Source: Anniella stebbinsi (lineage: Eukaryota > Chordata > Lepidosauria > Squamata > Anniellidae). From it: a stretch of DNA of 64,000 bases. Below the pieces are notes generated by a model that did no database searches, was not told where the DNA came from, and saw nothing but the letters and a program-made list of their open reading frames with translations. Made by a program: the position numbers and the translations under genes. Shown one piece after another: positions 10,905 to 56,869 of this stretch. The stretch is from NCBI GenBank assembly GCA_029215795.1, contig JARDYH010000003.1, positions 95,946,609 through 96,010,608 of the forward strand, in the 5' to 3' direction. Positions within the stretch are counted from its first letter, which is position 1. Each line of letters starts with the position of its first letter.

Positions 10905-12670
10905 TATGGTTGGGTTCGGATGACATATTAAGCAATGGAGTGGTATGGCCGCTTCAAAAAAAAAAAGCCCTCCCTGGACCCCCTGGACCTTAATAACTAC
11001 AGACCAGTATCAAATCTTCCATTTCTGGGCAAGGTGATTGAGAGGGCAGTTGCCTTCCAACTCCAAGCAGTTTTGGATGATACAGATTTTCTAGAACCAT
11101 TTCAAACCGGCTTCAGGGCAGGATACGGAGTTGAGAGCGCTATGGTCGCCTTAGTGGATGATCTATGCTTGAGTACAAAGGGAGTGTGTCCCTGCTGGTA
11201 CTTCTGGACCTCTCAGCAGCTTTCGATATCATCGACCATGGTATCCTTCTGGAACACCAGAGGGGATTGGGGCTCGGGGGCACTGTGCTTCAGTGGTTCT
11301 GCCTACCTCTCGGGCAGGTTCCAGATGGTGATGCTTGGGAATAGTTGCTCCTCAAAGAAGGAGCTGTTGTGTGGCATACCTCAAGGCACCATCCTGTTCC
11401 CAATGCTGTTTAACATCTACATGAAACCGCTGGGAGAGATCATCCGGAGGCATGGGGCGGGGCGCTATCAATATGCTGATGACACCCAAATATATTTCTC
11501 TATGCCTTCGACAACAGCTAAGGATAGTGCATCTCCTCTGAATGAATGCCTGGAGACAGTAATGGGCTGGATGAGGGAAAACAAACTGAAGCTGAATCCA
11601 GACAAGACGGAGGTGCTTACTGTCAAAGGCCCCAACCTGGGTTTGGAGGTGTGTCAACCAGTTCTGGATGGGTTACACTCCCCCTGAAAGGCTGTGTTCG
11701 CAGCTTGGGGGATGCTCCTGGATCCATTGCTCCAAATGACAGCTCAGATAGATGCAACGGCCAGGAGTGCCTACTATCAGCTTCGGCTGATACGCCAGCT
11801 GCATCCCTTTCTAGAGTTGGAAGACCTAAAGACAATAGTGCACACGCTGGTAACTTCGAGGCTCGACTTCCTCTGTGCCTAGTCCAGAAACTTCAACTAG
11901 TTAAAAATATGGCAGCCAGGTCGGTCACTGGTACACCTAGGGGTGACCATATCAAACCAGCTTTAAAATTTCTCCACTGGCTGCAAATTAGTTTCCGGGC
12001 GAAGTACAAAGTGTTGGTCATTACCTTTAAAGCCCTTCATGGTTTGGGTCCAGGTTACCTGTGGGAACACCTTCTCCCATACAATCTGCCCCGCACGCTT
12101 ATGTCCTCTGGGAAGAATTTACTACAGTCAGCCAAGACTAGGCTGACAACTGTTACCCAGAGGACCTTCTCTTCTGCCGCTCCCAGATTGTGGAATGACC
12201 TGCCGGGAGAGATCCGCCAACTCACCAGTCTTCAAGAATTTAAAAGAGGCCTACCCAGATGAATTTTAAGTGGTTTATTGGTATTTTATTGATATTTTAA
12301 TGATGTATTGGTTTTATGTGCTTTTAATCTGTTTTGTGTATTTTATATTTGATATTGTACCCCACCTCAATCCGGAGGGAGAGGCGGGTAATAAATAAAT
12401 AAATAAATAACTGTCCATTGTGTTGATTATTGTGTCATGTGGGGGGGGGGGTGACACACAATGGACACACAGTGTATTATTTAACAATGGGGGGAAACAA
12501 TGGGCTACTCTATTGCTTATCAGAGACCCATTGCTTATCATGAGGCCGGGACTTTCAGCCACGCAACGGGGGAGGGGCAATGTGTCATGTGGGGAGCACC
12601 GCAAAAAACAACGACCCATCAGTTGCCTCTTCCCCCTCCATTGCCTATAGTGTCATCCAAACACAGCCTA
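10905..12670. mobile_element. hAT-like TIR element, family B, carrying an L2 insertion
   Basis: The left end tatggttgggttcggatgac and right end gtcatccaaacacagccta are imperfect inverted repeats. They are flanked by a perfect 8-bp duplication TGTCTATC (10897-10904 and 12671-12678). The element's own DNA is only about 10905-10934 and 12411-12670. The rest is an L2 LINE that inserted later. The interior 'gtgttgattattgtgtcat' matches other family B copies. Confidence 0.7.
10935..12410 (+). pseudogene. L2-clade LINE, 5'-truncated, reverse transcriptase broken by frameshifts
   Basis: This is the 3' part of an L2-type non-LTR retrotransposon. The frame at 10935-11687 shows reverse transcriptase blocks: LNNYRPVSNLPFLGKVIE at the start, FQTGFRAGYG, GIPQGT, and the catalytic YADDTQIY near codon 180, followed by KLNPDKTEV. 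The reading then shifts frame near 11690 and again near 11880. It continues in the frame ending at 12262 through NMAARSVTGTPRG, KALHGLGPGYL and RLWNDLPGEIR, the usual L2 C-terminus. The first Asp block (LLDLSAAFD in relatives) is damaged by a frameshift. The element ends at 12410 in (ATAA)n after the L2-type 'aatccggagggagaggcgggta' tail. The endonuclease domain is absent, so it is dead. It sits inside the family B element at 10905-12670. Confidence 0.85.
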
Positions 12671-17780: not shown

Positions 17781-17852
17781 GCTGTAGAGTTCATAATGAT
17801 AATGTAATATGTGAGCATTTTGTCATTTGCATCTATGAAACTGTGTCAGGAT

Positions 17853-19261
17853 TAGGGATGTGCACTGACCCCCCGGATCGGATCGGATAGCGGATCGGAA
17901 TCGGACCTGGGGGGTCGGATCGGATCGGATCAGATAGTGTGTCGGATCGGATCGGATCCGATTCCGATCCGCGGATCGGATTTTCCGATCCGGATCGGAC
18001 GCCATTTTGAATGCTTTTTCCTATAGCAAATTATTGTTTTACAAAAACGCCTATAACTTTTTCATTTTTAACGACAGAAGGATGAAACTTGGGCACATTG
18101 TACACTGGTTAGGGATAGGTATCTGTGAGAAATTTCAGAAAGATTGGTGCATGCAGTTTGTGGCAATTAATTTTTTAATAAATAACATGGAATGCCTATA
18201 ACTCGGTCATTTTTAAAGTTACACACATGAAACTTTGCCACATTGTAGGTGGTACCTTGGGACCCACGTGTGTGAAATCCCAGAACCGTGGGTGCTTGCC
18301 TGGTGTGGCAATGAATTTTTGAAAATGGGTAGTAGTGGGGTAAATGCAGTTATGCCTCCCATGTTTTTATTTTTAAAGATACAAACAGGACACTTCGGCA
18401 CATTACAGGGAACACTTCCCTTGATATGTGTGTAACATTTCAGACAGCTAGCTCCAGGCATGTGTTGGCAATGAATTGTTGAAAATTGGGTAGCAGTGGG
18501 GTAAAATACAGTTTTGCCTCCCATTTTTTTATTTTCAAAGATACAAACGGGAAACTTTGGCACATTGCAGGGAACACTTCACTTCAAATGTGTGTGAAAT
18601 TTCCGGAAGCTAGGTGCAATATTTTAGTGGGAAACGAACGTTTATTCATGGCATTTCACATGGGATTTATGGGTTGGTTTGAAGAGCTACCAAGCTCTAA
18701 CTCGCTCACATGGCAGAGGACCTATGGCCGCTCATACGCTGAAAATTTCACAAACTTTGGTGCAATGCTTTAGTGGGAAAACAAAGGTTTATTCATGGCA
18801 TTTCACATGGGATTTATGGGTTGGTTTGAAGAGCTACCAAGCTCTAACTCGCTCACATGGCAGAGGACTTATGCCTGCTCAAACGCTGAAAATTTCACAA
18901 ACTTTGGTGCAATGCTTTAGTGGGAAAACAAAGGTTTATTCATGGCATTTCACATGGGATTTATGGGTTGGTTTGAAGAGCTACCAAGCTCTAACTCGCT
19001 CACATGGCAGAGGACTTATGCCTGCTCAAACGCTGAAAATTTCACAAACTTTGGTGCAATGCTTTAGTGGGAAAACAAAGGTTTATTCATGGCATTTCAC
19101 ATGGGATTTATGGGTTGGTTTGAAGAGCTACCAAGCTCTAACTCGCTCACATGGCAGAGGACTTATGCCCGCTCAAACGCTGAAAATTTCACAAACTTTG
19201 GTGCAATGCTTTAGTGGGAAAACAAAGGTTAAACTTTATTATTTTAAACCTTCAGGAAGGG
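17853..19261. repeat. Left inverted arm of the giant hAT
   Basis: It begins with about 150 bp dense in ggatcgg steps, likely transposase-binding subterminal repeats. Three or four diverged blocks of about 150-200 bp follow, each carrying 'ataact..tcatttttaa..gaaact.tg.cacatt' text. Four 147-bp units come next. Read in reverse, the right arm 28888-30150 follows the same text, with very few differences where I compared them. The arms end together at 'aaaccttcaggaa'. Confidence 0.85.
18641..19228. repeat. Four tandem 147-bp units in the left arm
   Basis: The phrase tttattcatggcatttcaca begins at 18641, 18788, 18935 and 19082, so the period is exactly 147 bp. Because 147 is divisible by three, one reading frame stays open across the array (203 codons). 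I regard that as a by-product and not a gene. Confidence 0.9.
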
Positions 19262-19599
19262 GACATTGCCTGCCTGGTGTGGAATGGTAATGAGGGAAGA
19301 AAGTTTCACTTATTCATTTGTAAAATGTAAAGTGATTGTAAATTGCTTTAGGGACCCATACATTTACATGACAAGACAGGTGTTGGTTGCAGGAATGCTA
19401 CGAAATGCACTAGTAGCTAATCAGATCCCAGCTAATAGCTATTCAGATCCTAGCTAATAGCTATTATTCAGATCCTAGCCTGGGAAGGGATCTTGCAGGA
19501 TAAATGATTGTTCTTTTCTTGTGTAGTATGTAATTCTAAACCAGAAGGCTGCTTTGATGTAGAGCCAATCCACATGGTCTCTTGCAGCACCTAGTATTA
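19262..19599. other. Spacer between left arm and exon-like array
   Basis: AT-rich text with a threefold 'ctaatagct' repeat (about 19411-19465). There is no open frame. It follows the minus-strand poly(A) signal at 19600-19605. Confidence 0.5.
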
Positions 19600-19605
19600 T
19601 TTATT
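19600..19605 (-). terminator. Poly(A) signal AATAAA on the minus strand
   Basis: The plus strand reads tttatt, giving AATAAA on the minus strand, about 425 bp downstream of the last splice-acceptor-like site (20030). It would end the proposed minus-strand spliced transcript. I saw no clear AATAAA on the minus strand between here and the transposase stop codon. Confidence 0.5.
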
Positions 19606-20030
19606 TCTCCTTCCACAGCAGAATCTGGAAGGCGGGCAGGCAGGCTGGCATCCAGGGCAAAGTCCAACAGCGGCGTTGGGGACTGGGTGACATTCCCCTT
19701 GAGGGCGAATGCCAAGTCCCATGGCTTGTGCAAGGAGGGTGGCTGGCCCTCCTCACAGGAAGGATCTGGAAGGCGGCAGGCGGCATCAGCAGCGGGCGGG
19801 CAGGCAGGCTGGCATCCAGGGCAAAGTCCAACAGCGGCGTTGGGGACTGGGTGACATTCTCCTTGAGGGCGAATGCCAAGTCCCATGGCTTGTGCGAGGA
19901 AGGCGGGTGGCCCTCCTCACAGGAAGGATCTGGAAGGCGGCAGGCGGCATCAGCAGCGGGCAGGCAGGCTGGCATTTAATGGGCAAAGTCTCTCCTTTCC
20001 CGGGCACTGTGGCAGTGAGAGTTCCATAGG
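19606..20030 (-). other. Terminal exon-like block with about 172-bp tandem repeats
   Basis: The acceptor ttcttttgcag precedes 20030 on the minus strand. The block opens CCTATGGAACTCTCACTGCC, like the 203-bp exon-like blocks at 21177 and 22849. No GTAAG donor follows. Instead the sequence runs through just over two repeats of about 172 bp (about 19630-19980), each containing 'ggcatccagggcaaagtcca'. It ends near AATAAA at 19600-19605. It is therefore a candidate last exon. No frame shared with the other blocks is open, so it is probably non-coding. Confidence 0.5.
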
Positions 20031-20534
20031 CTGCAAAAGAAGAGGAGGGGGAAAATGAATATTACATGAATACTTTTATACTGCAAAAGAAGAAAGGAAA
20101 ATAAATAAAGATTTGTATTAAATTAATACATGCAAGTCCTAGTAGTCTCCCACCGGCACACTTCTCTTGTTTGTGATGCAATCCTCCTTCTCCTGCTGCA
20201 CCCCTCCCTTTCTAAATCACTCTTCTGAGCCCATTGTTAGAGAGATTGGCTATCCTTTTGTGTCTGGCAGGACACAGCTTACCGGAGCATTAGAGAATCA
20301 CCATTTCTTTTGTCCTGGGGTTATTCATTCACTCCTAATAGCACCCTACGTTAGGCTGACCAGATCAAATCCAGGTCAGGGTTCCTAACTTCAGCAGTTG
20401 TAGAGAAAAGGGAATTTCTGCCAGTGTCATTTGTATGGAATTAGTTCCTGCTGAGATTCCCTCTTCATCACAACAGTTAAAGGTGCAGGGGCCCTGCCTT
20501 CTTTTCTATATGCCCACTCTGCCTGCACTCTTAC

Positions 20535-20649
20535 CTGAGTCGTACGGGCGACGTGAATCGATGGGCCACCTCCATGCGGCCGTGGCTGGGGCAGATGGGC
20601 AGTCTGGAATCACGGGTGCGCTTTGCGCAGTGGCGAAGAGTTCCATAGG
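20535..20649 (-). other. Exon-like block, 115-bp type
   Basis: On the minus strand a pyrimidine-rich run and TTTTGCAG precede CCTATGGAACTC, and the block ends ACTCAG followed by GTAAGAG. It has both a strong acceptor and a strong donor. It is identical in design to the blocks at 21884 and 23556. Confidence 0.55.
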
Positions 20650-20856
20650 CTGCAAAAGAAGAAGGGGGGGGAAGAATATGAGAAAAATGATACTTTTCCA
20701 CCACTGGCTCCCTCCCACCCAAGACTGGCATGTGCCCGGTCCTGAGTGCCCACGCCCCAGCAGGCACACGGGGCTGCCTGCTTACTCGGAAGTTAGCAGG
20801 CAGACAGCCAACCTTCAGTTAGGTGGAAGGTGCCCCCCCATTCACAGAACACTTAC

Positions 20857-20969
20857 CACAGTCGTGAGGGCGTTGTTGATAAGATGCCACTTCCAGGCGG
20901 GCAGTGACGGGCAGGTGGGCAGTCTGCATTACCGTCTCTCCTGGGCACTGTGGCAAAGAGTTCCATAGG
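20857..20969 (-). other. Exon-like block, 113-bp type
   Basis: The minus-strand acceptor TTTTGCAG comes before CCTATGGAACTC. The donor is GACTGTG followed by GTAAGTG. Sister copies are at 22207 and 22529. Confidence 0.55.
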
Positions 20970-21176
20970 CTGCAAAAGAAGAAGGGGGGGGAAGAATATG
21001 AGAAAAATGATACTTTTCCACCACTGGCTCCCTCCCACCCAAGACTGGCATGTGCCCGGTCCTGAGTGCCCACGCCCCAGCAGGCACACGGGGCTGCCTG
21101 CTTACTCGGAAGTTAGCAGGCAGACAGCCAACCTTCAGTTAGGTGGAAGGTGCCCCCCCATTCACAGAACACTTAC

Positions 21177-21379
21177 CATAGTCCTGAGGGCGTTGAGGAC
21201 TAGGTGAGATTCTCCTGGAGGACCCCTAGTCCCATGGCTTGTGCAAGGAAGGCGGCTGGCCCGCCTCGCAGGAACGATCTGGAAGGCGGCAGGTGGCATC
21301 AGCAGCGGGCAGGCAGGCTGGCATGTAATGGGCAAAGTCTCTCCTTTCCCGGGCACTGTGGCAGTGAGAGTGCCATAGG
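21177..21379 (-). other. Exon-like block, 203-bp type
   Basis: The minus-strand acceptor TTTTGCAG comes before CCTATGGCACTC. The donor is GGACTATG followed by GTAAGTG. Its start matches the terminal block at 20030, and its sister copy is at 22849. Confidence 0.55.
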
Positions 21380-21883
21380 CTGCAAAAGAAGAGGAGGGGG
21401 AAAATGAATATTACATGAATACTTTTATACTGCAAAAGAAGAAAGGAAAATAAATAAAGATTTGTATTAAATTAATACATGCAAGTCCTAGTAGTCTCCC
21501 ACCGGCACACTTCTCTTGTTTGTGACGCAATCCTCTTTCTCCTGCTGCACCCCTCCCTTTCTAAATCACTCTTCTGAGCCCATTGTTAGAGTGATTGGCT
21601 ATCCTTTTGTGTCTGGCAGGACACAGCTTACCGGAGCATTAGAGAATCACCATTTCTTTTGTCCTGGGGTTATTCATTCACTCCTAATAGCACCCTACGT
21701 TAGGCTGACCAGATCAAATCCAGGTCAGGGTTCCTAACTTCAGCAGTTGTAGAGAAAAGGGAATTTCAGCCAGTGTCATTTGTATGGAATTAGTTCCTGC
21801 TGAGATTCCCTCTTCATCACAACAGTTAAAGGTGCAGGGGCCCTGCCTTCTTTTCTATATGCCCACTCTGCCTGCACTCTTAC

Positions 21884-21998
21884 CTGAGTCGTACGGGCGA
21901 CGTGAATCGATGGGCCACCTCCATGCGGCCGTGGCTGGGGCAGATGGGCAGTCTGGAATCACGGGTGCGCTTTGCGCAGTGGCGAAGAGTTCCATAGG
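21884..21998 (-). other. Exon-like block, 115-bp type
   Basis: Second copy of the 115-bp block, with acceptor TTTTGCAG and donor ACTCAG followed by GTAAGAG. Confidence 0.55.
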
Positions 21999-22206
21999 CT
22001 GCAAAAGAAGAAGGGGGGGGGAAGAATATGAGAAAAATGATACTTTTCCACCACTGGCTCCCTCCCACCCAAGACTGGCATGTGCCCGGTCCTGAGTGCC
22101 CACGCCCCAGCAGGCACACGGGGCTGCCTGCTCACTCGGAAGTTAGCAGGCAGACAGCCCCACTTCGGTTAGGTGGAAGGTGCCCCCCCATTCACAGAAC
22201 ACTTAC

Positions 22207-22319
22207 CACAGTCGTGAGGGCGTTGTTGATAAGATGCCACTTCCAGGCGGGCAGTGACGGGCAGGTGGGCAGTCTGCATTACCGTCTCTCCTGGGCACTG
22301 TGGCAAAGAGTTCCATAGG
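22207..22319 (-). other. Exon-like block, 113-bp type
   Basis: Copy of the 113-bp block, with TTTTGCAG acceptor and GTAAGTG donor intact. Confidence 0.55.
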
Positions 22320-22528
22320 CTGCAAAAGAAGAAGGGGGGGGGGAAGAATATGAGAAAAATGATACTTTTCCACCACTGGCTCCCTCCCACCCAAGACTGG
22401 CATGTGCCCGGTCCTGAGTGCCCACGCCCCAGCAGGCACACGGGGCTGCCTGCTCACTCGGAAGTTAGCAGGCAGACAGCCCCACTTCGGTTAGGTGGAA
22501 GGTGCCAACCCATTCACAGAACACTTAC

Positions 22529-22641
22529 CACAGTCGTGAGGGCGTTGTTGATAAGATGCCACTTCCAGGCGGGCAGTGACGGGCAGGTGGGCAGTCTGCA
22601 TTACCGTCTCTCCTGGGCACTGTGGCAAAGAGTTCCATAGG
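22529..22641 (-). other. Exon-like block, 113-bp type (extra copy)
   Basis: This is the additional 113-bp block that makes the second array unit longer. Acceptor and donor are intact. Confidence 0.55.
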
Positions 22642-22848
22642 CTGCAAAAGAAGAAGGGGGGGGAAGAATATGAGAAAAATGATACTTTTCCACCACTGGC
22701 TCCCTCCCACCCAAGACTGGCATGTGCCCGGTCCTGAGTGCCCACGCCCCAGCAGGCACACGGGGCTGCCTGCTCACTCGGAAGTTAGCAGGCAGACAGC
22801 CAACCTTCAGTTAGGTGGAAGGTGCCCCCCCATTCACAGAACACTTAC

Positions 22849-23051
22849 CATAGTCCTGAGGGCGTTGAGGACTAGGTGAGATTCTCCTGGAGGACCCCTA
22901 GTCCCATGGCTTGTGCAAGGAAGGCGGCTGGCCCGCCTCGCAGGAACGATCTGGAAGGCGGCAGGTGGCATCAGCAGCGGGCAGGCAGGCTGGCATGTAA
23001 TGGGCAAAGTCTCTCCTTTCCCGGGCACTGTGGCAGTGAGAGTGCCACAGG
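22849..23051 (-). other. Exon-like block, 203-bp type
   Basis: Second copy of the 203-bp block. It opens CCTGTGGCACTC, one base different from its sister. Acceptor and GTAAGTG donor are intact. Confidence 0.55.
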
Positions 23052-23555
23052 CTGCAAAAGAAGAGGAGGGGGAAAATGAATATTACATGAATACTTTTAT
23101 ACTGCAAAAGAAGAAAGGAAAATAAATAAAGATTTGTATTAAATTAATACATGCAAGTCCTAGTAGTCTCCCACCGGCACACTTCTCTTGTTTGTGACGC
23201 AATCCTCTTTCTCCTGCTGCACCCCTCCCTTTCTAAATCACTCTTCTGAGCCCATTGTTAGAGTGATTGGCTATCCTTTTGTGTCTGGCAGGACACAGCT
23301 TACCGGAGCATTAGAGAATCACCATTTCTTTTGTCCTGGGGTTATTCATTCACTCCTAATAGCACCCTACGTTAGGCTGACCAGATCAAATCCAGGTCAG
23401 GGTTCCTAACTTCAGCAGTTGTAGAGAAAAGGGAATTTCAGCCAGTGTCATTTGTATGGAATTAGTTCCTGCTGAGATTCCCTCTTCATCACAACAGTTA
23501 AAGGTGCAGGGGCCCTGCCTTCTTTTCTATATGCCCACTCTGCCTGCACTCTTAC

Positions 23556-23670
23556 CTGAGTCGTACGGGCGACGTGAATCGATGGGCCACCTCCATGTGG
23601 CCGTGGCTGGGGCAGATGGGCAGTCTGGAATCACGGGTCCGCTTTGCGCAGTGGCGAAGAGTTCCATAGG
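23556..23670 (-). other. Exon-like block, 115-bp type (first after the minisatellite)
   Basis: Third copy of the 115-bp block. The minus-strand acceptor is a C/T run then TTTTGCAG, and the donor is ACTCAG followed by GTAAGAG. In transcription order it is the first internal block after the donor at 23890. Confidence 0.55.
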
Positions 23671-23889
23671 CTGCAAAAGAAGGAGGGGGGGGGAAAGAAT
23701 TAACATGAGATAAATCATACTTTTCCACCATTGGCTCCCTCTCACCCAGGACTGGCATCTGCCCGGTCCTGAGTGCCCACGCCCCAGTAGGCACACGGGG
23801 CTGCCTGCTTCCTTACTCGGAAGTAAGATCTCAGACTGCCCCACTTCTGGACACCCTCAGGTGTCCCTGCGTTGACTGCACACACTTAC

Positions 23890-24653
23890 CTTATTCGTGC
23901 GGCCGCTGTGGATCGGAGGACTCCAGTGGCACATAGGCTCCTCCAGGCAAAGTCACATTGGCATAGGCTCCTCCAGGCAAAGTCACATTGGCATAGGCTC
24001 CTCCAGGCAAAGTCACATTGGCATAGGCTCCTCCAGGCAAAGTCACATTGGCATAGGCTCCTCCAGGCAAAGTCACAGTGGCATAGGCTCCTCCAGGCAA
24101 AGTCACATTGGCATAGGCTCCTCCAGGCAAAGTCACATTGGCATAGGCTCCTCCAGGCAAAGTCACATTGGCATAGGCTCCTCCAGGCAAAGTCACATTG
24201 GCATAGGCTCCTCCAGGCAAAGTCACATTGGCATAGGCTCCTCCAGGCAAAGTCACATTGGCATAGGCTCCTCCAGGCAAAGTCACAGTGGCATAGGCTC
24301 CTCCAGGCAAAGTCACAGTGGCATAGGCTCCTCCAGGCAAAGTCACATTGGCATAGGCTCCTCCAGGCAAAGTCACATTGGCATAGGCTCCTCCAGGCAA
24401 AGTCACATTGGCATAGGCTCCTCCAGGCAAAGTCACATTGGCATAGGCTCCTCCAGGCAAAGTCACAGTGGCATAGGCTCCTCCAGGCAAAGTCACATTG
24501 GCATAGGCTCCTCCAGGCAAAGTCACAGTGGCATAGGCTCCTCCAGGCAAAGTCACATTGGCATAGGCTCCTCCAGGCAAAGTCACATTGGCATAGGCTC
24601 CTCCAGGCAAAGTCACAGTGGCATAGGCTCCTCCAGGCAAAGTCACATTGGCA
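23890..24653 (-). other. Candidate first exon: minisatellite ending in a splice donor
   Basis: On the minus strand the sequence leaving the minisatellite ends GAATAAG followed by GTAAGTGTG, a strong donor with its last exon base at 23890. No acceptor is obvious upstream, so this would be the 3' part of a first exon that starts in or near the promoter-like repeat at 24654-25164. Several frames are open only because the 30-bp repeat contains no stop. Confidence 0.4.
23932..24653. repeat. 30-bp minisatellite, 24 copies
   Basis: The unit can be written as cataggctcctccaggcaaa followed by gtcacattgg. Twenty-four copies stand in perfect register. The only variation I see is one position, cattgg versus cagtgg, with six G copies (numbers 5, 12, 13, 18, 20 and 23). 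Since 30 is divisible by three, long open frames exist on both strands. These are artefacts of the repeat. Confidence 0.95.
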
Positions 24654-25164
24654 GGCAGGCAGAGGCGGGCCGGGCATGATGCTTCACAATGGCGGCAACC
24701 TAGCAGGCAGGCAGGCAGGCAGAGGCAGAGGCAGAGGCAGAGGCGGGCATGATGCCAGGCGCTTGCGCATTGCACAAGTAAGCAATAGAACCGTGAGACC
24801 AGCCCACGCATTCCGGCTACTTCACAATGGCGGCAACCTAGCAGGTGGGCAGGCGGGCAGGCAGGCAGGCAGGCAGGCAGAGGCAGAGGCAGAGGCGGGC
24901 ATGATGCCAGGCGCTTGCGCATTGCACAAGTAAGCAATAGAACCGTGAGACCAGCCCACGCATTCCGGCTACTTCACAATGGCGGCCACCTAGCAGGTGG
25001 GCAGGCGGGCAGGCAGGCAGGCAGGCAGAGGCAGAGGCAGAGGCGGGCATGATGCCAGGCGCTTGCGCATTGCACAAGTAAGCAATAGAACCGTGAGACC
25101 AGCCCACGCATTCCGGCTACTTCACAATGGCGGCAACCTAGCAGCTGGGCAGGCGGGCAGGCAG
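24654..25164. promoter_or_regulatory. Promoter-like tandem repeat, about 150-bp period
   Basis: GC-rich units recur with 'catgatgccaggcgcttgcg' starting near 24749, 24900 and 25048. Each carries 'ttccggctacttcacaatgg' then cggc. The motifs match familiar elements of TATA-less vertebrate promoters: an ETS site (CCGGAA on the minus strand), a YY1-like GCCGCCATT on the minus strand (four copies, near 24690, 24828, 24979 and 25128), and an NRF1-like gcgcttgcgcat. Runs of (GGCA)n and (GGCAGA)n separate the units. Direction of transcription is not proven. Confidence 0.5.
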
Positions 25165-25744
25165 TTTTTTAAATCATATAGCTAAAATAAACACAACACA
25201 CAGTGACAGCCCTGCAAGGCTGCCACATAAGTCCAAAAGACACAGTCAGAAACAGTGTGGGATGCTGCTTGTCATCCACTCAATGTAGGAGCCTGGAAGA
25301 GGAATCCTATCGCGTCCTTCGTTCATAGTCAGAGAGGTGCATGCGTTCCTTGGCGACAAAATTAAGCCTTCTTCTTATCCAAAGTTCTCATGAGCCTCTG
25401 ACGTGGTCTTACAAGAGGAAACGCCCATGGAAGTGTGGGACCTTACAGAAGGCCTGGAGGGAGCCATCGGAGTCCAATTTCAGAGGCACACGTGCAAGCA
25501 CATTGGTTCAAGTCAAACAACATAGAATGTGTGAGATGCTTGTGCATCCCCTCAATGTAAGAGGCTAGGAGAAGGAACTAGATCCCTTCGGGATCCATCG
25601 TTCAGAGTTGAGTTACTGAGCTGTAAACAACACAGCCAGTAAATTAAAGTAAAGAAAATTAATTAACCGAAAATAAGAATTAAAAAATCAAGGGCCTGCC
25701 GGTGCCTGCCCAAAGGTGTGGGATGGATGGGGGGTGCCTGCCAA
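25165..25744. other. Spacer downstream of the transposase
   Basis: Two diverged copies of one block, 'gatgctgcttgtcatccact' with 'caatgtaggag' near 25261 and 'gatgcttgtgcatcccctca' with 'atgtaagagg' near 25534, suggest an old duplication of about 275 bp. A small hairpin 'gatcccttcgggatc' lies near 25582. No clear minus-strand poly(A) signal is present for the transposase. Confidence 0.5.
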
Positions 25745-28273
25745 TTACTCCCCCGCGGGCATGAGGGTGGGGTATCCCAGCAGGGGCAGATTGACCTTGA
25801 GGAAGACCAGCTGCTCCACAATCTCAGCGTCCAAGCGAGAACGGTGGGGTGTGACCACGTCGCCCGCCATGGAAAACACCCGCTCGCTTGGAACGCTGGA
25901 CGGTGGGCAGCTGATTCTGTCCATGGCCACCCGCGCCAGATCAGGCCACATCTGGCGCCGAGATGACCAGTAGGCCAGGGGTTCGATGGAGCCGTCCTCC
26001 ATCTGCTCCGCCAGGTAACGCTGCACTGCTGCTGCAGCGTCATCCTGGCGGCGGCTGGGTTGAGTGCCTCTATGCCCAACCGCAGCCTGCAAAGCCTTGT
26101 CCCAAAACCCCTGGCCTGTCCCCCTGCTGGGTGTGGTGGTGCTGCTGCCGCCGCTGCTGGTGGTGCTCAGCGGACTTAGCGCCTGGGCTTCGGTGGCCTC
26201 CTCCTCTGCCTGCCCAATCCTGGCATCCCGGGCCGCCCGAACGTCCGTCACCAGCATTTCCACCCAACCTGCCCGGGAAGTCTGCCCACATAACCCATCC
26301 TTGATGCGCGGGTCGCACATGGTGGCCAACATGTACTGCCTCTCGTTGTAGAGAGGCTGGACCCGGCGGGATAGGCTTTCCCTCAGCCTCGTCACCACTT
26401 CCCGCACCTCTGGCAGGAAGCGCCTGCCGGTGACGGCATCCCCGGCCTCCAGAAACTCGCCCATCTGATTCTGGAGATGCCTGGCCACGGGGAGCACCTG
26501 GCTGAGAAGGGCAGTGCTGCTGCTCAGGGTCTCGGTGGCCTCAAGGAACGGCTTGAGGACCACCAGAAGCTGGGACATGGCCTCCCACTGCTGCCTGGAC
26601 AGTGGGGCCTGGATGCCAATGTCCCCGACCCTGAACATCTCGTGGACAACACGCTGTTGCTCCACCATACGCTCGAGCATGTGGTAGGTGGAGTTCCAAC
26701 GTGTTGCCACGTCCTGCACTAGCCGGTGCTGCGGAAGTCCCAGCTCCTGCTGCTTCTCCCGCAGCAACCGACTGCCCTTCACGCTGTGGTGGAAATGCCC
26801 AGCCACCTTCCTGCAGCTCTCTAGGAGATTACGGATTTGGGGAGGGAGAGGGGCCTTGCTGCCTCCAAGGCCATCCCTGACGACCAGGTTGAAGACGTGC
26901 GCGATGCAGCGGATGCCCTCAAATCCGCCATCGCGCACCGCCTTCAGCATATTGGCTCCCCCGTCCGTGACCATGTAACCGCGGGTGTGCTGGTGCCCGC
27001 CCAGCCACCCTGCCACCATGCGGTTCATGGCCTCCGTAATCTCCTCCGCCGTGTGGGACTGGTCCATGACTGCGGTATGAAGGAGGGCCCAGCGGCAGCC
27101 CTCCTTCCCAGTCCCAGAAGTCCTGGGTGCTTCCTGCCCTGAGGCTCCCCACCAGTGAGCCGTCAGGGACAGGTAAGCGTGCACTCCTCCTTCGCTGGAC
27201 CAGATGTCCGAAGTGAAGTGCACCTTCTGTGCCTCTGCCTGGCACAGACGACCCAGAACTAACTCCCTGCATGCCTGGTACAGGGAGGGCACCACACGCC
27301 TGCTCAGGGTGGTGCGACACGGCGGCTTGTAGTATGGAACCACAAGAGCCATCAGCCTCTTGAAGCCTGCGTTCTCGACGAGGCTGAATGGCTGGTCATC
27401 CAACGCCACCATCTCACCGATGCAATTGGTGATCTGGTTGGGCGCTGGAAAACGCCACCTTGTGGCTCCATACTTCCCCCACCCCATCTCTTCCATGGTG
27501 GCCTGGCGAAGCCTCTTGGGGATGGGAGGTCGAGAGCTGGCAGAAGTTGCAGGAGCCTTCTGCTTGCCCTTGCCGCTAGCACCAGTCTGCTGCGAGGTGC
27601 CCGCCTCGGTCCCAAGCAAAACAGACTGGTGGTGCCTCTGCATGTGGCGGCTGAGGTTCGTGGTGGTGAAGTGGCCTGGCATTTTTTCCCTGCTCACTGA
27701 CATCTTGCAGTGGCGACAGACAGCAAAGCGGGAATCCACTGCCACCTCAAAGTGGTCCCACACCTTGCTTGCCTGTCGCTTCTGGGGTGACACAGACGGC
27801 CTGCCGGCGCCTTCGCTCTGTGGTGTCACCTCAGGAGCAAGGGAATGAGTGGAAGAGAGGACGGATTGTGGAGAGTAAGTCTCTGGTGCTGCCTGCTCTT
27901 CCTCTTGCCCCACATCAGAGTCCTCCTCCTCACTCTGAACCTCGCTGACTTCCACAAGATCTGGGAAAAGATCAGTCAGCGGGTTCACAGGCTCACCCAC
28001 CAAAGAAGGAGCTGGATATAGTGCTCCTTCTTCATGCCCACTGCTGCTCCCAGCACCTGCCTCATGTTGCTGAAAGAGTGCCCTGCAGGCACTACTTTGA
28101 GTTGCCTCTGCCTGCTTCTGCTGCCCCAGTGGAGAACGCCTCAGTTTAACTGGGGGTGTGGAAGTAGGCTGCCTGCTGCTGGTCCCAGCAGCAGCAGCAG
28201 CAGCGCCATGCCCAGAGCGGCCTCTCCCAAATGCTGCCTTGGGAGCACCCCCCCTTTGAGTGCCACGCTTCAT
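25745..28273 (-). CDS. hAT transposase with BED zinc finger (ZBED-like)
   Basis: An 842-codon uninterrupted frame encodes the enzyme that would excise and insert this element. Residues 1-165 are low complexity, with an acidic patch (108-127). A BED zinc finger covers about 169-215: C186 and C189, then H210 and H214 or H215, after the aromatic W172. The RNase H-like catalytic core follows, with SDIW at D356 and VTDGGAN at D437, then CIAH (C456, H459) and the RWNSTYHMLER block at 525-535. The C-terminal dimerisation domain spans about 763-830 with SVPSERVFSMAG. Its Glu at 797 is probably the third catalytic residue by analogy with Hermes. The start was chosen as the first ATG after an AT-rich leader. 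All key blocks are intact, so it may be active. A host-domesticated ZBED gene is unlikely because the frame lies inside a complete transposon with matching ends. Confidence 0.93.
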   Translation of the reverse strand: MKRGTQRGGAPKAAFGRGRSGHGAAAAAAGTSSRQPTSTPPVKLRRSPLGQQKQAEATQSSACRALFQQHEAGAGSSSGHEEGALYPAPSLVGEPVNPLTDLFPDLVEVSEVQSEEEDSDVGQEEEQAAPETYSPQSVLSSTHSLAPEVTPQSEGAGRPSVSPQKRQASKVWDHFEVAVDSRFAVCRHCKMSVSREKMPGHFTTTNLSRHMQRHHQSVLLGTEAGTSQQTGASGKGKQKAPATSASSRPPIPKRLRQATMEEMGWGKYGATRWRFPAPNQITNCIGEMVALDDQPFSLVENAGFKRLMALVVPYYKPPCRTTLSRRVVPSLYQACRELVLGRLCQAEAQKVHFTSDIWSSEGGVHAYLSLTAHWWGASGQEAPRTSGTGKEGCRWALLHTAVMDQSHTAEEITEAMNRMVAGWLGGHQHTRGYMVTDGGANMLKAVRDGGFEGIRCIAHVFNLVVRDGLGGSKAPLPPQIRNLLESCRKVAGHFHHSVKGSRLLREKQQELGLPQHRLVQDVATRWNSTYHMLERMVEQQRVVHEMFRVGDIGIQAPLSRQQWEAMSQLLVVLKPFLEATETLSSSTALLSQVLPVARHLQNQMGEFLEAGDAVTGRRFLPEVREVVTRLRESLSRRVQPLYNERQYMLATMCDPRIKDGLCGQTSRAGWVEMLVTDVRAARDARIGQAEEEATEAQALSPLSTTSSGGSSTTTPSRGTGQGFWDKALQAAVGHRGTQPSRRQDDAAAAVQRYLAEQMEDGSIEPLAYWSSRRQMWPDLARVAMDRISCPPSSVPSERVFSMAGDVVTPHRSRLDAEIVEQLVFLKVNLPLLGYPTLMPAGE

Positions 28274-28887
28274 TTTATTTTTATTATTATTTATTTTTGT
28301 GTAAGTGTGTGCTTTGCTGACTTTTTTTGTGTTTGTAGCAGCAGGCTACACAGCCCAGCAACACACACTCACTCACAAGCGCGCACACACACACACACAC
28401 ACACAGAGAAAGAGAGAGAGAGAGAGAGAGGATAGAAATATTTTTTTATTATTTTTTTGGGTTTTTTTCAGAAAGCGAAAGAAGAACAAACAAACACACT
28501 CACTGCAAAGACAAACTGAACTCACAGACAAACAAACGTGCTATCTAAGAAAGGAAAGGCAAGAGAGAAAGGAAAGCCAAGAGAGAGAACAAGAAAAGCT
28601 GAAGTAAAAGATCAGAAAAACTCCTCAAAACCACCTCCAAATACAATCAAATCAATACAGTCTCTCCAACACAGCTCCAAAACACTCCCTAATCTCCTCC
28701 ACGTTCAACCCACAAAGAGCCAGAAGGGCAGGGCTGAGAGAATATATACTGGTGCCCTCCTCCAGCATTGCGATTGGAGGCTGAAGAAAGTCTTCACAGG
28801 ATTGGGTGATTCAGTCATGTATTCTAAAGCACAATTGGTGGATCAAGCTGTCAAACACACACACACAAACACAGCCTCCCCCTCCCT
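28274..28887 (-). promoter_or_regulatory. Transposase leader with (CA)n and (GA)n runs
   Basis: This lies between the transposase start and the right arm. It holds a (CA)n tract followed by (GA)n at about 28384-28430. A minus-strand TATATATT lies near 28743-28750, in a suitable place for a TATA box of the transposase promoter. The promoter assignment is inference. Confidence 0.35.
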
Positions 28888-30150
28888 TTCCTGAAGGTTT
28901 AAAATAATAAAGTTTAACCTTTGTTTTCCCACTAAAGCATTGCACCAAAGTTTGTGAAATTTTCAGCGTTTGAGCAGGCATAAGTCCTCTGCCATGTGAG
29001 CGAGTTAGAGCTTGGTAGCTCTTCAAACCAACCCATAAATCCCATGTGAAATGCCATGAATAAACCTTTGTTTTCCCACTAAAGCATTGCACCAAAGTTT
29101 GTGAAATTTTCAGCGTTTGAGCAGGCATAAGTCCTCTGCCATGTGAGCGAGTTAGAGCTTGGTAGCTCTTCAAACCAACCCATAAATCCCATGTGAAATG
29201 CCATGAATAAACCTTTGTTTTCCCGCTAAAGCATTGCACCAAAGTTTGTGAAATTTTCAGCGTATGAGCGGCCATAGGTCCTCTGCCATGTGAGCGAGTT
29301 AGAGCTTGGTAGCTCTTCAAACCAACCCATAAATCCCATGTGAAATGCCATGAATAAACGTTCGTTTCCCACTAAAATGTTGCACCTAGCTTCCGGAAAT
29401 TTCACACACATTTGAAGTGAAGTGTTCCCTGCAATGTGCCAAAGTTTCCCGTTTGTATCTTTGAAAATAAAAAAATGGGAGGCAAAACTGTATTTTACCC
29501 CACTGCTACCCAATTTTCAACAATTCATTGCCAACACATGCCTGGAGCTAGCTGTCTGAAATTTTACACACATATCAAGGGAAGTGTTCCCTGTAATGTG
29601 CCGAAGTGTCCTGTTTGTATCTTTAAAAATAAAAACATGGGAGGCATAACTGCATTTACCCCACTACTACCCATTTTCAAAAATTCATTGCTACACCAGG
29701 CAAGCACCCACGGTTCTGGGATTTCACACACGTGGGTCCCAAGGTACCACCTACAATGTGGCAAAGTTTCATGTGTGTAACTTTAAAAATGACCGAGTTA
29801 TAGGCATTCCATGTTATTTATTAAAAAATTAATTGCCACAAACTGCATGCACCAATCTTTCTGAAATTTCTCACAGATACCTACCCCTAACCAGTGTACA
29901 ATGTGCCCAAGTTTCATCCTTCTGTCATTAAAAATGAAAAAGTTATAGGCGTTTTTGTAAAACAACAATACTTTGCTATTGGAAAAACGCATTTAAAATG
30001 GCGTCCGATCCGCCGATCCGATCCGATCCGGATCGGACCTCGTCGGATCGGATCGGATCGGATGTTGTGTCGGATCGGATCGGATCGGATTTTCCGATTT
30101 TTGGGGCGGATCGGATTCGGATCGTGGATCGGATCCGATGCACACCCCTA
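28888..30150. repeat. Right inverted arm of the giant hAT
   Basis: This is the reverse complement of the left arm, from 'ttcctgaaggttt' outward to the end 'cacaccccta'. It is about 1,263 bp against 1,409 bp on the left, and the difference is one 147-bp unit. The outer 150 bp (about 30003-30140) is again dense in ggatcgg steps. Confidence 0.85.
28919..29359. repeat. Three tandem 147-bp units in the right arm
   Basis: The phrase ccatgaataaac recurs at 29054, 29201 and 29348, an exact 147-bp period. There are three copies here and four in the left arm. Confidence 0.9.
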
Positions 30151-30158
30151 GTCAGGAT

Positions 30159-31256: not shown

Positions 31257-31281
31257 ATATATATATATATATATATATATA

Positions 31282-31601
31282 TAGGCTGACCATATGAAAA
31301 GGAGGACAGGGCTCATGTAACTTTAACAGTTGCAGAGAAAAGGGAATTTCAGCCAATGCCATTTGTATGCAATTAATTCCTGGTGACATTCGCTCTTCAT
31401 CACAACAGTTAAAGTTGCAGGGGACCTGCCTTCTTTTGTATGTGGTCACTCTAGTATAGTGCCTGCAACTTTAACTGTTGTGATGAAGAGGGAATATCAC
31501 CAGGAACTAATTGCATACAAATGACACTGGCTGAAATTCCCTTTTCTCCACAACTGTTAAAATTACATGAGCCCTGTCCTCCTTTTCATATGGTCAGCCT
31601 A
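31282..31601. mobile_element. hAT fold-back MITE, family A, copy inserted in a (TA)n run
   Basis: It starts taggctgaccatatg and ends catatggtcagccta, and is nearly one inverted repeat. Flanking 8-mers are tatatata (31274-31281) and tatatatt (31602-31609), a 7/8 match. A (TA)n microsatellite lies immediately left, at about 31257-31281. Confidence 0.8.
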
Positions 31602-31675
31602 TATATATTGCATCTTTCCATCTGAATGTTTGTTTGTTTGTAGTATTTTTATGGCACTCCTCAGCCAAAACAACA

Positions 31676-32665: not shown

Positions 32666-33041
32666 TCTTGAGGTATTTTGGGCAAACACCCTATTTGAGT
32701 CATGAACAATGTCTGGTTGGCAAAGTTCTAGAGGTAGAGATATTTATGTCAGAACTCTTAATGATGAGGAACCATCCTTTTTGCTAGGTAGTGCTGCTTG
32801 TGAGGCTGCAGTGTACCTGACCTGAGTTCAACCTCTGGCACATTCAGGAATTCACACATTGCCAGCTTGCAGGAAGCTTTTGGAACAATTCCCCCAGTCC
32901 TGATGTCTTGCTGTAATGTGTAATTGAAGCAATGGCATATTCTCCTGTTTATCTGTCTTCATTTTTCGCTCCTTCCTCTACTGTTTCTACTTTTAAACAC
33001 TTGGGGTAGAGACTTATCACACCTGGGTTTGGAACCTGGAT

Positions 33042-33360
33042 TAGGCTGACCATATGAAAAGGAGGACAGGGCTCATGTAACTTTAACAGTTGTAGAGAAA
33101 AAGGAATTTCAGCCAGTGTCATTTGTATGCAATTAGTTCCTGGTGATATTCCCTCTTCATCACAACAGTTAAAGTTGCAGGCACTATACTAGAGTGACCA
33201 CATACAAAAGGAGGCAGGTCCCCTGCAACTTTAACTGTTGTGATGAAGAGGGAATTTCACCAGGAACTAATTGCATACAAATGGCATTGGCTGAAATTCC
33301 CTTTTCTCTACAACTGTTAAAGTTGCATGAGCCCTGTCCTCCTTTCATATGGTCAGCCTA
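33042..33360. mobile_element. hAT fold-back MITE, family A
   Basis: This is a 319-bp near-perfect inverted repeat, starting taggctgaccatatg and ending catatggtcagccta. A perfect 8-bp duplication ACCTGGAT flanks it at 33034-33041 and 33361-33368. Confidence 0.88.
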
Positions 33361-33368
33361 ACCTGGAT

Positions 33369-39194: not shown

Positions 39195-39513
39195 TAGGCT
39201 GACCATATGAAAAGGAGGACAGGGCTCATGTAACTTTAACAGTTGTAGAGAAAGAGAATTTCAGCCAGTGTCATTTGTATGCAATTAGTTCCTGGTGAAA
39301 TTCCCTCTTCATCACAACAGTTAAAGTTGCAGGGGCCCTGCCTTCTTTTGTATATGGTCACTCTAGTATAGTGCATGCACCTTTAACTGTTGCGATGAAG
39401 AGGGAATTTCACCAGGAACTAATTGCATGCAAATGACACTGGCTGAAATTCCCTTTCCTCTACAACTGTTAAAGTTACAGGAGCCCTGTCCTCCTTTTCA
39501 TATGGTCAGCCTA
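39195..39513. mobile_element. hAT fold-back MITE, family A
   Basis: This 319-bp near-perfect inverted repeat has a perfect 8-bp duplication CATATGAA at 39187-39194 and 39514-39521. Confidence 0.88.
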
Positions 39514-41293: not shown

Positions 41294-41381
41294 GAATTTG
41301 TGAGATTGAAGGGCAGCTGTGAGGAGAGGTTAAAGAATGTAAGATAATATCTATTGCTTTGAACAGTAGAAATGTATCTAT

Positions 41382-42937
41382 TAGGGGTGTGCACGGACCC
41401 CCCGGATCGGATCGGGACCCGGATCGGGACCTCCAATTTTGTCCCGGACCGGTTCGGACAAAATCGGAGGCCCCCCGGACCGGATCGAGTCCGATCCCGA
41501 CCCAAAAATCGTAAATTTTTGGATCGGCCGCCATTTTTTTCCCCATAGACTTGCATTGCAATGCAAGTCTATGAGGAAAAAATGGCGGCGGGTGGGTGAG
41601 GGGGGGCCTAACTCCCTCCCCCCCCGGGGCCGTCCGCTGTGGACGGCCCCGGCAGGTAAGCCCCCTCCCCCGCGCTCCCTACCCCCCCTGGGGCCGCCCG
41701 CTTCCATCCGCTGGCGCCCGCGGGCGCCAGCGTATAGAAGCGGACGGCTCCGGGGGGGGGTAAGCCCCCTTCCCCGCCACTGCTTACCTTCTCGGCCCGT
41801 CTGCTCCCGTCCGGCGCCGGCGGCTACTACCAGCGGGCTCCGCGGCCTACTCTCGAGTAGCGCGCCGGGTGATGACATCACCCGGCGCGCCACCCTGGAG
41901 TAGGCCGCGGAGCCTGCTGGTAGTAGTAGGCGCCGGCGCCGGACGGGAGCCGCCGGGCCGGGAAAGTAAGGGCCCCCCTCCCCCCTCCGCGCGCCCCATC
42001 CTCCCCTCCACGCACCCCCTGCTTACCTTCCCGGCCCAGCGGCTCCCGTCCGGCGCCGGCGCCTACTATTACCAGCAGGCTCCGCGGCCTGCTCTACAGT
42101 AGCGCGCCGGGTGATGACATCACCCGGCGCGCCACCCTAGAGCAGGCCGCAGAGCCTGCTGGTAGTAGTAGGCGCCGGCGCCGGGACGGGAGCCGCCGGG
42201 ACGGGAAGGTAAGGGCCCCCCTCCCCCCTCCGCACGCCCCCTCCTCCCCTCCACGCACCCCCTGCTTACCTTCCCGGCCCGGCGGCTCCCGTCCGGCGCC
42301 GGCGCCTACTACTACCAGCAGGCTCCGCGGCCTGCTCTAGAGTAGCGCGCCGGGTGATGACATCACCCGGCGCGCCACCCTAGAGCAGGCCGCGGAGCCT
42401 GCTGGTAGTAGTAGGCGCCGGCGCCGGACGGGAGCCGCCGGGCCGGGAAGGTAAGGGCCCCCCTCCCCCCTCCGCGCGCCCCCTCCTCCCCTCCACGCAC
42501 CCCCTGCTTACCTTCTCGGCCCGTCTGCTCCCGTCCGGGGCCGGCGGCTACCACCAGCAGGCTCCGCGGCCTGCTCTAGAGTAGCGCGCCGGGTGATGAC
42601 ATCACCCGGCGCGCCACCCTAGAGCAGGCCGCGGAGCCCGCTGGTAGTAGCTGCTAGTGCCGGACGGGAGCGGACGGGCCGAGAAGGTAAGCGCCCCCCT
42701 CCTCCCCCCCCCGCTGTCCACTTTCATCGGCGGGCGCCTGCTGGCGCCCGCCAATGGAAGCGGCGGTGGGCGCCAGTGGGCGCCCGCCGATCCGCCGATC
42801 CGGTTCGGAGCCTTTTCGGACCGGTTCGGATTGGATCGGCCGATCCAGCTGCGGGATCAGAAATCGGATAATTTATCCGATTTCCCACTGGACTGGACTC
42901 GGATCGTGGATCGGGTCCGATCCAGTGCACATCCCTA
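41382..42937. mobile_element. Non-autonomous hAT element related to the giant hAT
   Basis: The left end is taggggtgtgcacggacc and the right end, read inward, tagggatgtgcactggatc. A perfect 8-bp duplication GTATCTAT lies at 41374-41381 and 42938-42945, again of nTnnnnAn form. Subterminal ggatcgg-type repeats match the giant element. The 1,556-bp element has no transposase. Its interior is four tandem GC-rich palindromes. It would depend on a transposase such as that at 25745-28273. Confidence 0.88.
41782..42692. repeat. Four tandem GC-rich hairpin units
   Basis: Units lie at about 41782-41970, 42021-42214, 42264-42455 and 42506-42692, a period of about 242 bp. Each is a near-perfect palindrome with arms of about 90 bp. 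The arms centre on gggtgatgacatcaccc and carry 'gcgccggcgcc' and 'gcgcgcc' blocks. Each left edge reads gcttacctt and most right edges aaggtaag, so outward-facing splice-donor-like text borders every unit on both strands. Confidence 0.85.
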
Positions 42938-42945
42938 GTATCTAT

Positions 42946-45554: not shown

Positions 45555-45872
45555 TAGGCTGACCATATGAAAAGGAGGACAGGGCTCATGTAACTTTAAC
45601 AGTTGTAGAGAAAGGGAATTTCAGCCAGTGTCATTTGTATGCAATTAGTTCCTGGTGAAACTCCCTCTTCATCACAACAGTTAAAGTTGCAGGGGCCCTG
45701 CCTTCTTTTGTATATGGTCACTCTAGTATAGTGCCTGCAACTTTAACTGTTGTGATGAAGAGGGAGTTTCACCAGGAACTAATTGCATACAAATGACACT
45801 GGCTGAAATTCCTTTTCCTCTACAACTGTTAAAGTTACATGAGCCCTGTCCTCCTTTTCATATGGTCAGCTA
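45555..45872. mobile_element. hAT fold-back MITE, family A
   Basis: A near-perfect inverted repeat flanked by a perfect 8-bp duplication TTCATTGC at 45547-45554 and 45873-45880. The right end has lost one C (gtcagcta). Confidence 0.85.
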
Positions 45873-50202: not shown

Positions 50203-50263
50203 CTGGGGGTGCTGCATCCCTTCCCATCCTGGATAGAGGAAGTAGACACCGCCCGAAGACTCC

Positions 50264-56541: not shown

Positions 56542-56549
56542 TGTACCAT

Positions 56550-56869
56550 TAGGCTGACCATCTGAAAAGGAGGACAGGGCTCCTGTAACTTTAACTGTTG
56601 TAGAGAAAAGGGAATTTCAGCCAGTGTCATTTGTAGGCAATTAGTTCCTGGTGAAATTCCCTCTTCATCACAACAGTTAAAGTTGCAGGGGCCCTGCCTT
56701 CTTTTGTATATGGTCACTCTAGCATAGTGCCTGCACCTTTAACTGTTGTGATGAAGAGGGAATTTCACCAGGAACTAATTGCATACAAATTACACTGGGT
56801 GAAATTCCCTTTTCTCTACAACTGTTAAAGTTACAGGAGCCCTGTCCTCCTTTTCAGATGGTCAGCCTA
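56550..56869. mobile_element. hAT fold-back MITE, family A
   Basis: This 320-bp near-perfect inverted repeat starts taggctgaccatctg and ends cagatggtcagccta. A perfect 8-bp duplication TGTACCAT lies at 56542-56549 and 56870-56877. Confidence 0.88.

Follow-up and report, generated by a model that had tools for sequence, protein, structure and literature searches.

A giant hAT transposon, probably autonomous, with inverted arms of foldback scale in Anniella stebbinsi

Elements of the hAT superfamily are usually a few kilobases in length, and those of vertebrates are usually short, with few or no intact mother elements. Hermes and its relatives in the superfamily (Ac, hobo, Tol2) encode a transposase with a BED finger, a DDE site accompanied by a CxxH motif and a tryptophan, and a C-terminal dimerization domain, and their 8-bp target-site duplications follow nTnnnnAn, which we take to be the Ac-clade form of the hAT target consensus. 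Hermes also carries several short subterminal repeats whose orientation differs between the two ends (PMC10368747). Galileo, a P-superfamily element of Drosophila, has an architecture similar to that reported below and undergoes ectopic recombination between copies (PMC2775673). The element gadMor-hAT-1784 of Atlantic cod is described as a hAT-type MITE without a transposase, with inverted repeats of ~600 bp built from 167–169-bp tandem units (PMC12368964), and Muta1, a mosquito MULE, as a foldback element of type 2 whose subterminal regions contain tandem repeats (PMC5225508).

The window analyzed here, a 64-kb stretch of DNA taken as a whole, contains a hAT element of the 12.3-kb class (17853–30150; 12,298 bp; table 1). 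It shares with Hermes and the wider superfamily all of the transposase features and the duplication consensus listed above, and, like Hermes, it has a number of short repeats near its termini whose orientation is not the same at both ends; it is unlike them in its size (10.6–13.6 kb among family members), in its kilobase arms holding tandem units, and in its palindromic satellites. Galileo differs from the giant in that its transposase is of the P type with a THAP domain, its target duplications measure 7 bp, and every copy sequenced by 2013 was broken, whereas the giant has a hAT BED transposase and intact copies. The cod element is likewise of hAT type with long inverted repeats built from tandem units, and differs from the giant, which is a transposase-bearing member with arms of 1.1–1.4 kb; Muta1 differs in transposase superfamily. 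Because Galileo and the cod hAT already show long arms, the giant is a variant on a known architecture; no earlier description of an autonomous long-armed hAT was recognised in our searches of openly available papers. Judged from sequence, it is very probably a giant autonomous hAT cut-and-paste transposon with inverted arms grown to foldback scale, and the window copy is best read as the autonomous representative within a hAT family of foldback type.

Table 1. Positions of features in the window.
Feature	Position	Strand	Remarks
Left target-site duplication GTCAGGAT	17845–17852	none	exact sequence match
Left terminal repeat TAGGGATGTGCA	17853–17864	+	hAT-like 12-bp end
Left inverted arm	17853–19263	+	1,411 bp
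Left subterminal CGGAT(C) array	17874–17999	+	same direction as right-end array
147-bp tandem units, left arm	18613–19230	+	4.2 copies
Middle block	19836–23847	+	1.35/1.67-kb tandem duplications with ~320-bp sub-units; differs among copies
Piece of ~330-bp palindromic genomic repeat, three places	20350–20520, 21699–21869, 23371–23541	+	
30-bp minisatellite	23932–24653	+	24 copies
148-bp tandem array	24703–25164	+	about 3 copies
Transposase	25745–28273	-	842 aa, intact frame
Promoter-like stretch of transposase gene	28742–28838	-	sequence motifs only
Right inverted arm	28883–30150	-	1,268 bp
147-bp tandem units, right arm	28916–29376	-	3.1 copies
Right subterminal CGGAT(C) array	30015–30138	+	outer limit set by eye
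Right terminal repeat TAGGGGTGTGCA	30139–30150	-	hAT-like 12-bp end
Right target-site duplication GTCAGGAT	30151–30158	none	exact sequence match
Second relative, same 12-bp ends	41382–42937	+	1,556 bp; duplication GTATCTAT at 41374–41381 and 42938–42945

The perfect 8-bp duplication and intact 842-codon transposase claimed in a first-pass annotation of this DNA are both present as described. Apart from the two flanking copies, GTCAGGAT is present at a single further place in the 64-kb window (9674, plus strand) and nowhere on the other strand. A search of the window for the 12-mer TAGGGRTGTGCA with at most one mismatch returned four matches, all exact (0.84 expected by chance), of which two are the ends of the giant and two those of the second element. 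The long inverted arms of the same annotation hold for the lengths given in table 1 but not for their outermost part: once the terminal 12 bp are passed, the two ends show no collinear inverted repeat in their outer ~110 bp, and collinear inversion begins ~111 bp inward. The arm core (18030–19083 and 28916–29969) is complementary at 99% across 1,054 nt, and the gap in length between the arms amounts to about one 147-bp unit. Twenty other copies have between 2 and 6 such units in the left arm. Long arms of this kind, with tandem units inside them, are a feature of foldback-type elements. The outer 200 bp at each end are rich in CGGAT(C), with 13 occurrences of CGGAT apiece on the same strand, and these arrays are candidate binding sites for the BED finger.

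Pfam models place a zf-BED domain at transposase residues 169–216 and Dimer_Tnp_hAT (PF05699) at residues 752–828 (E = 1.8e-15; 56.9 bits against a cut-off of 21.4), with no other domain and no THAP-type P transposase; features of MULE transposases are absent both by Pfam domains and by Foldseek fold match. Alignment with Hermes identifies the DDE triad as D356, D437, and E797, accompanied by C456xxH459 and W526. E797 is present in all 15 aligned rows, window copy included, and the remaining residues in 14 of them, the fifteenth (L016) being uncovered in that region. In a Foldseek search of the PDB with an AlphaFold model (mean pLDDT 69, with some low-confidence stretches), Hermes is the top match (E = 2.7e-15) and occupies ranks 1–12, with TM-scores by query length of 0.39–0.44; the model thus suggests a Hermes-like fold, RNase H-like with an insertion domain. 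The nearest named relatives, compared as proteins and named by their annotation, are BED-domain and ZBED4-like proteins of a crocodile, lizards, caecilians, and frogs (up to 51% identity).

We searched the element's own 1.89-Gb genome with 52-nt patterns, allowing up to 3 mismatches. The left-end pattern gave 5,437 matches and the transposase pattern 744, with none for reversed-pattern controls; the window copy's own right-end pattern occurs at just 127 places because, as reading other copies revealed, this copy lacks a 5-bp unit of the majority form. Twenty other copies were fetched by left-end similarity over 200 bp, a sample therefore biased to giants. The 12 ordinary copies among them with right ends read span 10,588–13,556 bp, each with a different, perfect 8-bp duplication (12/12), and are full-length copies of the kind that the first-pass annotation had proposed searching for. 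With the window copy included, the duplications mostly follow nTnnnnAn: 12 of 13 have T at position 2 (P = 2e-6), and 11 of 13 have A at position 7 (P = 5e-5). An empty site, also proposed there, was found in the form of paralogues for a different copy (L023); the traces of movement seen are insertion products and this empty-site paralogue. In each of the five copies followed from one end to the other, the arms align over 1,128–1,161 columns at 98.3–98.6% and the transposase frame is intact (842–844 aa). Over the 169 bp compared, left–right differences are about as large within copies as between them, which gives no sign that the two arms of a copy evolve in concert.

For 14 of the 20 fetched copies the sequence extends into the transposase gene: all seven fully covered genes are intact, in-frame 3-nt insertions aside, and six of seven partly covered ones are clean, L016 having a 1-nt deletion within the 510 nt covered. 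Three of four further transposase matches checked from the genome listing are also intact, and the fourth (L077) has a premature stop; some copies of the family are therefore broken. Pairwise differences between transposase genes are 0–0.8%, which makes the family young, and dN/dS is about 0.36. The family might accordingly have undergone a recent burst and now be silenced, its genes intact merely through youth. The broken copies agree with such a history; several transposase genes differ by merely 0–0.1% and dN/dS lies below 1, which speak against it, although neither demonstrates present activity. We consider a dead family somewhat improbable, yet the most serious of the alternatives.

Arms so abundant and near-identical clearly offer material for deletions and inversions. 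In two of the 20 fetched copies (L013 and L017) the left terminus is followed by the part of the interior that otherwise adjoins the right arm, as would be expected if some copies were inversion isomers, their interiors turned around in place when one arm recombined with the other. L013, however, is better explained by nested copies that lost the DNA between two arms of like orientation: the duplication of the outer copy, CATGCAAT, sits at the predicted place. Two left ends that face each other (C1:30145150 and 30157522; 30.15 Mb) were considered as a left–left element and fit a copy nested in the left arm of another. In-place inversion of the interior, for which L017 is still a candidate, is unlikely, and one rearranged copy is best explained by arm–arm deletion.

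The left-end matches do not correspond to 5,437 copies of 12 kb, a reading that we dropped since the sample in which 20 of 20 were long was biased. From 100 listed left ends we hand-picked about every fifth and used 19 (L060 was dropped), viewing 1 kb located 6–10 kb inward: three have the transposase there and 16 do not, 14 of these without any element match in the segment viewed and two (L061 and L062) with partial matches outside the gene. Two such relatives without the transposase were followed along their full length, 2.5 and 3.6 kb. Both (2/2) are palindromic almost throughout and have perfect duplications; they consist mostly of inverted repeat, as copies of the foldback class do. Giants and satellites have an identical majority left end over the outer 82 bp, are 70–96% alike beyond it (96% at positions 181–300 as well), and have nearly identical right ends over the outer ~57 bp. 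The autonomous member may also move palindromic satellites. Given that sampled satellite left arms are ~89% like those of the giant, the satellites, two of which were read through, may descend from a different mother; their ends could instead match those of the giant via gene conversion or common descent.

We hypothesize that the gene between the arms would supply the transposase, that its BED finger would dock on the CGGAT(C) arrays, and that its DDE site would cut at TAGGGRTGTGCA, with insertion into nTnnnnAn. Satellites would be moved in trans by the transposase of the giant, and slippage within the repeat-rich arms, along with either recombination there or repair by snap-back, would leave copies longer, shorter, or palindromized. 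More tentatively, and with a little less than even confidence, we propose that a vertebrate hAT lineage has independently become a foldback system in which several hundred mostly intact giants now drive thousands of satellites that are nearly perfect palindromes. In this scheme the arms would be both additional docking sites for the transposase and the recombination substrate from which satellites are made. Hundreds of transposase-bearing giants apparently beside palindromic satellites make the origin of long inverted arms testable, as well as their possible roles in offering more transposase docking sites or in feeding recombination.

The first-pass annotation also held that this is an unusually large, possibly active lineage with extra DNA gathered between its arms, a reading that is supported: size and arms are family traits among the copies read, the family is young and its transposases, where read, are mostly intact, and the middle is built of tandem arrays, some containing pieces of a palindromic repeat of the genome, a piece of which was probably captured by the element and duplicated afterwards. 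An interior so composed would also suit an ordinary 4–5-kb hAT inflated at one locus by nested insertions and tandem duplication, its arms a local accident. Giant copies elsewhere in the genome refute this reading, which we hold to be highly improbable: the exact end motif is absent within 9.8 kb in all 20 fetched copies (chosen by left-end similarity), the 12 with right ends read are all of giant length with duplications, and each of the 16 transposase matches listed for C1 as far as 37.2 Mb is accompanied by a correctly oriented left end, 15 of them at 8.2–11.5 kb and one at 19.3 kb, a spacing that fits a nested copy. A Mutator-like element, to which long inverted repeats and 8–10-bp duplications would point and whose features as described in PMC5225508 match the long arms and 8-bp duplication, has almost no standing against a hAT dimerization domain, BED finger, and Hermes fold and duplications that are mostly nTnnnnAn.

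A 49-aa repeated frame in the arms was considered as coding and is treated as chance; stops fall at the same coordinates in 20 of 20 other copies, which are offset there by 1 nt from the window copy, so that the comparison does not track the exact frame. Motifs in the putative promoter comprise a TATA-like sequence at 28742 and CCAAT at 28773, 28801, and 28834.

The giant hAT-type element of the window terminates in TAGGGATGTGCA and TAGGGGTGTGCA and is bounded by inverted arms of 1,411 bp (left) and 1,268 bp (right). The arms share a 1,054-nt core that is 99% complementary. The left arm is longer by approximately one repeat of a tandem array whose 147-bp unit is present in 4.2 copies on the left and 3.1 on the right. 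From after the first 12 bp to approximately position 110, the outer ends are not collinear inverted repeats and instead consist of CGGAT(C)-rich arrays, with 13 CGGAT motifs in each outer 200 bp and both arrays running in the same direction within the element. The interior contains a 1.35/1.67-kb tandem duplication block with ~320-bp subunits, a minisatellite with 24 copies of a 30-bp unit, and a 148-bp array. It also contains parts of a ~330-bp palindromic repeat that recurs at several more sites in the window; half of this repeat is present in three copies inside the element. The transposase gene is preceded by TATA-like and CCAAT motifs.

Locations of the giant element, its relatives and an associated repeat (window positions, except for C2, which belongs to the source assembly G000)
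Feature	Location	Strand	Description
Giant hAT element	17853-30150		exact GTCAGGAT on both flanks
Transposase gene	25745-28273	minus	842 aa, uninterrupted frame
~330-bp palindromic genomic repeat	31275-31608, 33041-33362, 39195-39513, 45555-45870, 56549-56869
Second related element	41382-42937		1,556 bp; same 12-bp ends, perfect GTATCTAT duplication
Nested copies L013, L041, L044	G000 C2:127426376-127444494		best explanation: deletion between like-oriented arms

Pfam searches of the window transposase at an E value of 0.001 identified a BED zinc finger and a hAT dimerisation domain and no further domain. Hermes was the sole match in a sequence search of solved structures, and PDB ranks 1–12 for a predicted AlphaFold model (mean pLDDT 69, N-terminus disordered), for which the window protein was combined with 18 of its 29 relatives, are all Hermes. 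D356, D437, and E797 form the catalytic triad, accompanied by C456xxH459 and W526. The 29 relatives, obtained by scoring 7,986 candidates from a collection of 5.8 billion proteins, include proteins from crocodile, lizards, caecilians, and frogs; given that the best of these reaches only 51% identity, the search at this sensitivity recovered no close relative of the transposase. Together with retroelement frames recognised by eye in the window, these matches suggest that the host is a reptile.

In the 1.89-Gb assembly (window included), a left-end pattern (first 52 nt, at most 3 mismatches) has 5,437 matches and a 52-nt transposase-gene pattern has 744, with 0 matches to the reversed-pattern control of either. 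Among 1,280 first-look candidates matching the left 200 bp, the 40 with the best scores were considered, and 20 of the 39 other copies were retrieved to 10 kb inward from the left end, a selection by left-end similarity that overstates the proportion of giants among left ends. For 14 of these copies the retrieved sequence extends into the transposase gene, and the exact end motif is absent within 9.8 kb in all 20. The 12 ordinary copies whose right end was read are 10,588–13,556 bp long, and each is flanked by a perfect 8-bp duplication of different sequence. Including the window copy, T occupies position 2 of the duplication in 12/13 and A position 7 in 11/13, matching nTnnnnAn, the duplication form of Ac-like hAT elements. 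All five copies read end to end have arms that align over 1,128–1,161 columns at 98.3–98.6% and intact transposase frames of 842–844 aa.

In a second, hand-picked sample composed of approximately every fifth of 100 listed left ends (19 usable), the transposase was found 6–10 kb inward in 3, consistent with the 744 versus 5,437 genome-wide matches. A less biased check begins at the transposase: for each of the 16 matches listed in C1 up to 37.2 Mb (all with 0 mismatches), a correctly oriented left end is also listed, at a distance of 8.2–11.5 kb in 15 cases and 19.3 kb in one, which is consistent with a known nested copy; a left end of the wrong orientation lies within 12 kb in 2 of the 16. Based on this pairing, the transposase-bearing copies in this part of C1 are giants. 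Extrapolating, 744 copies of ~11.9 kb (the mean of 13 lengths) would take up ~8.9 Mb and thus make up 0.5% of the genome.

Empty-site paralogues show that the copy at locus L023 inserted with target duplication. This copy lies within a ~330-bp palindromic repeat, and its flanks, joined with one duplication, align to insertion-free repeat copies in the window, five of which match across the junction at 89–92%; the junction is gap-free in the two alignments inspected. The giant family is young, because transposase genes and left arms are nearly identical between copies. Transposase genes differ pairwise by 0–0.8% (15 copies including the window, some with partial coverage), with a dN/dS of about 0.36 (13 synonymous and 15 nonsynonymous changes; binomial p 0.012), and left arms diverge by at most 1.84% over the outer 760 bp, copies L017-L028 differing by 0–0.26%. 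In-frame 3-nt insertions aside, all seven fully covered genes are intact; six of seven partly covered genes are clean, the seventh (L016) having a 1-nt deletion, and among genes chosen from the transposase match list three of four are intact, with one stop in L077.

In a nested pair on C2, the left end of the first copy is followed by interior sequence from the right-arm side. The second copy, which is reversed, breaks off within copy sequence (element position about 10,034), and CATGCAAT, the duplication of the first copy, was found after a right end at the distance predicted. Given that the stretch expected between two like-oriented arms is absent, the pair is best explained by recombination between arms. 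Copy L017 (C1, around 402.11 Mb) begins in the same way, with an interior in the opposite orientation to its left terminus, and encloses a 3.6-kb palindromic satellite.

Transposase-free satellites share the ends of the giant. In all five left ends retrieved for 1.6 kb from the transposase-negative part of the second sample, the outer arms are ~89% like those of the giant. Two satellites were read to the far end: the one nested in L017 (3,589 bp, ATACAAAT on both flanks) is 98% identical to its reverse complement across 3,404 columns, and L072 (2,533 bp, flanked on both sides by GTTTTTTT) is palindromic at 93–96%. Between the majority left end of eight giants and that of six satellites, the first 82 bp are identical, followed by 70% identity at 83–180, 96% at 181–300, and 89–91% beyond; right ends of five giants and two satellites have one differing position in about the first 57. 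Identity limited to the outer ends is compatible with recognition by one transposase; it could also stem from conversion or common descent.

The insertion products, arms, gene, copies, satellites, and one rearranged nested pair were observed directly. For the mechanism, we propose that the BED finger may bind the CGGAT(C) arrays and that the transposase would cleave at TAGGGRTGTGCA, insert into nTnnnnAn targets, and move satellites in trans. Hermes subterminal repeats, antisense at one end and sense at the other, are described as candidate BED-domain sites in PMC10368747, and by analogy CGGAT(C) may be their counterpart. Slippage in the repeat-rich arms may alter arm length (left-arm unit number varies from 2 to 6 among 20 copies), and recombination or snap-back repair of such arms may give rise to the palindromes.

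Long arms, and long-armed hAT relatives, have precedents in two systems. Galileo has arms of 0.5–1.2 kb whose tandem repeats contain extra binding sites (PMC3688188), an architecture similar to the giant's; however, it is a P element. Cod gadMor-hAT-1784 has ~600-bp arms of 167–169-bp units (PMC12368964), resembling the tandem-unit arms of the giant, but is described without the transposase that the giant carries. What the present family adds is a giant, transposase-bearing, mostly intact, and numerous partner alongside palindromic satellites; a comparable transposase-bearing long-armed hAT was not recognised in the open-licence literature searched.

The second related element in the window is a more distant relative of the giant, GC-rich (71%) and with several internal palindromic modules. 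By eye, an open, reverse-transcriptase-like frame at window 10932-11687 is similar to a non-LTR retroelement, and open frames at 49645-51097 look like parts of an endogenous retrovirus.
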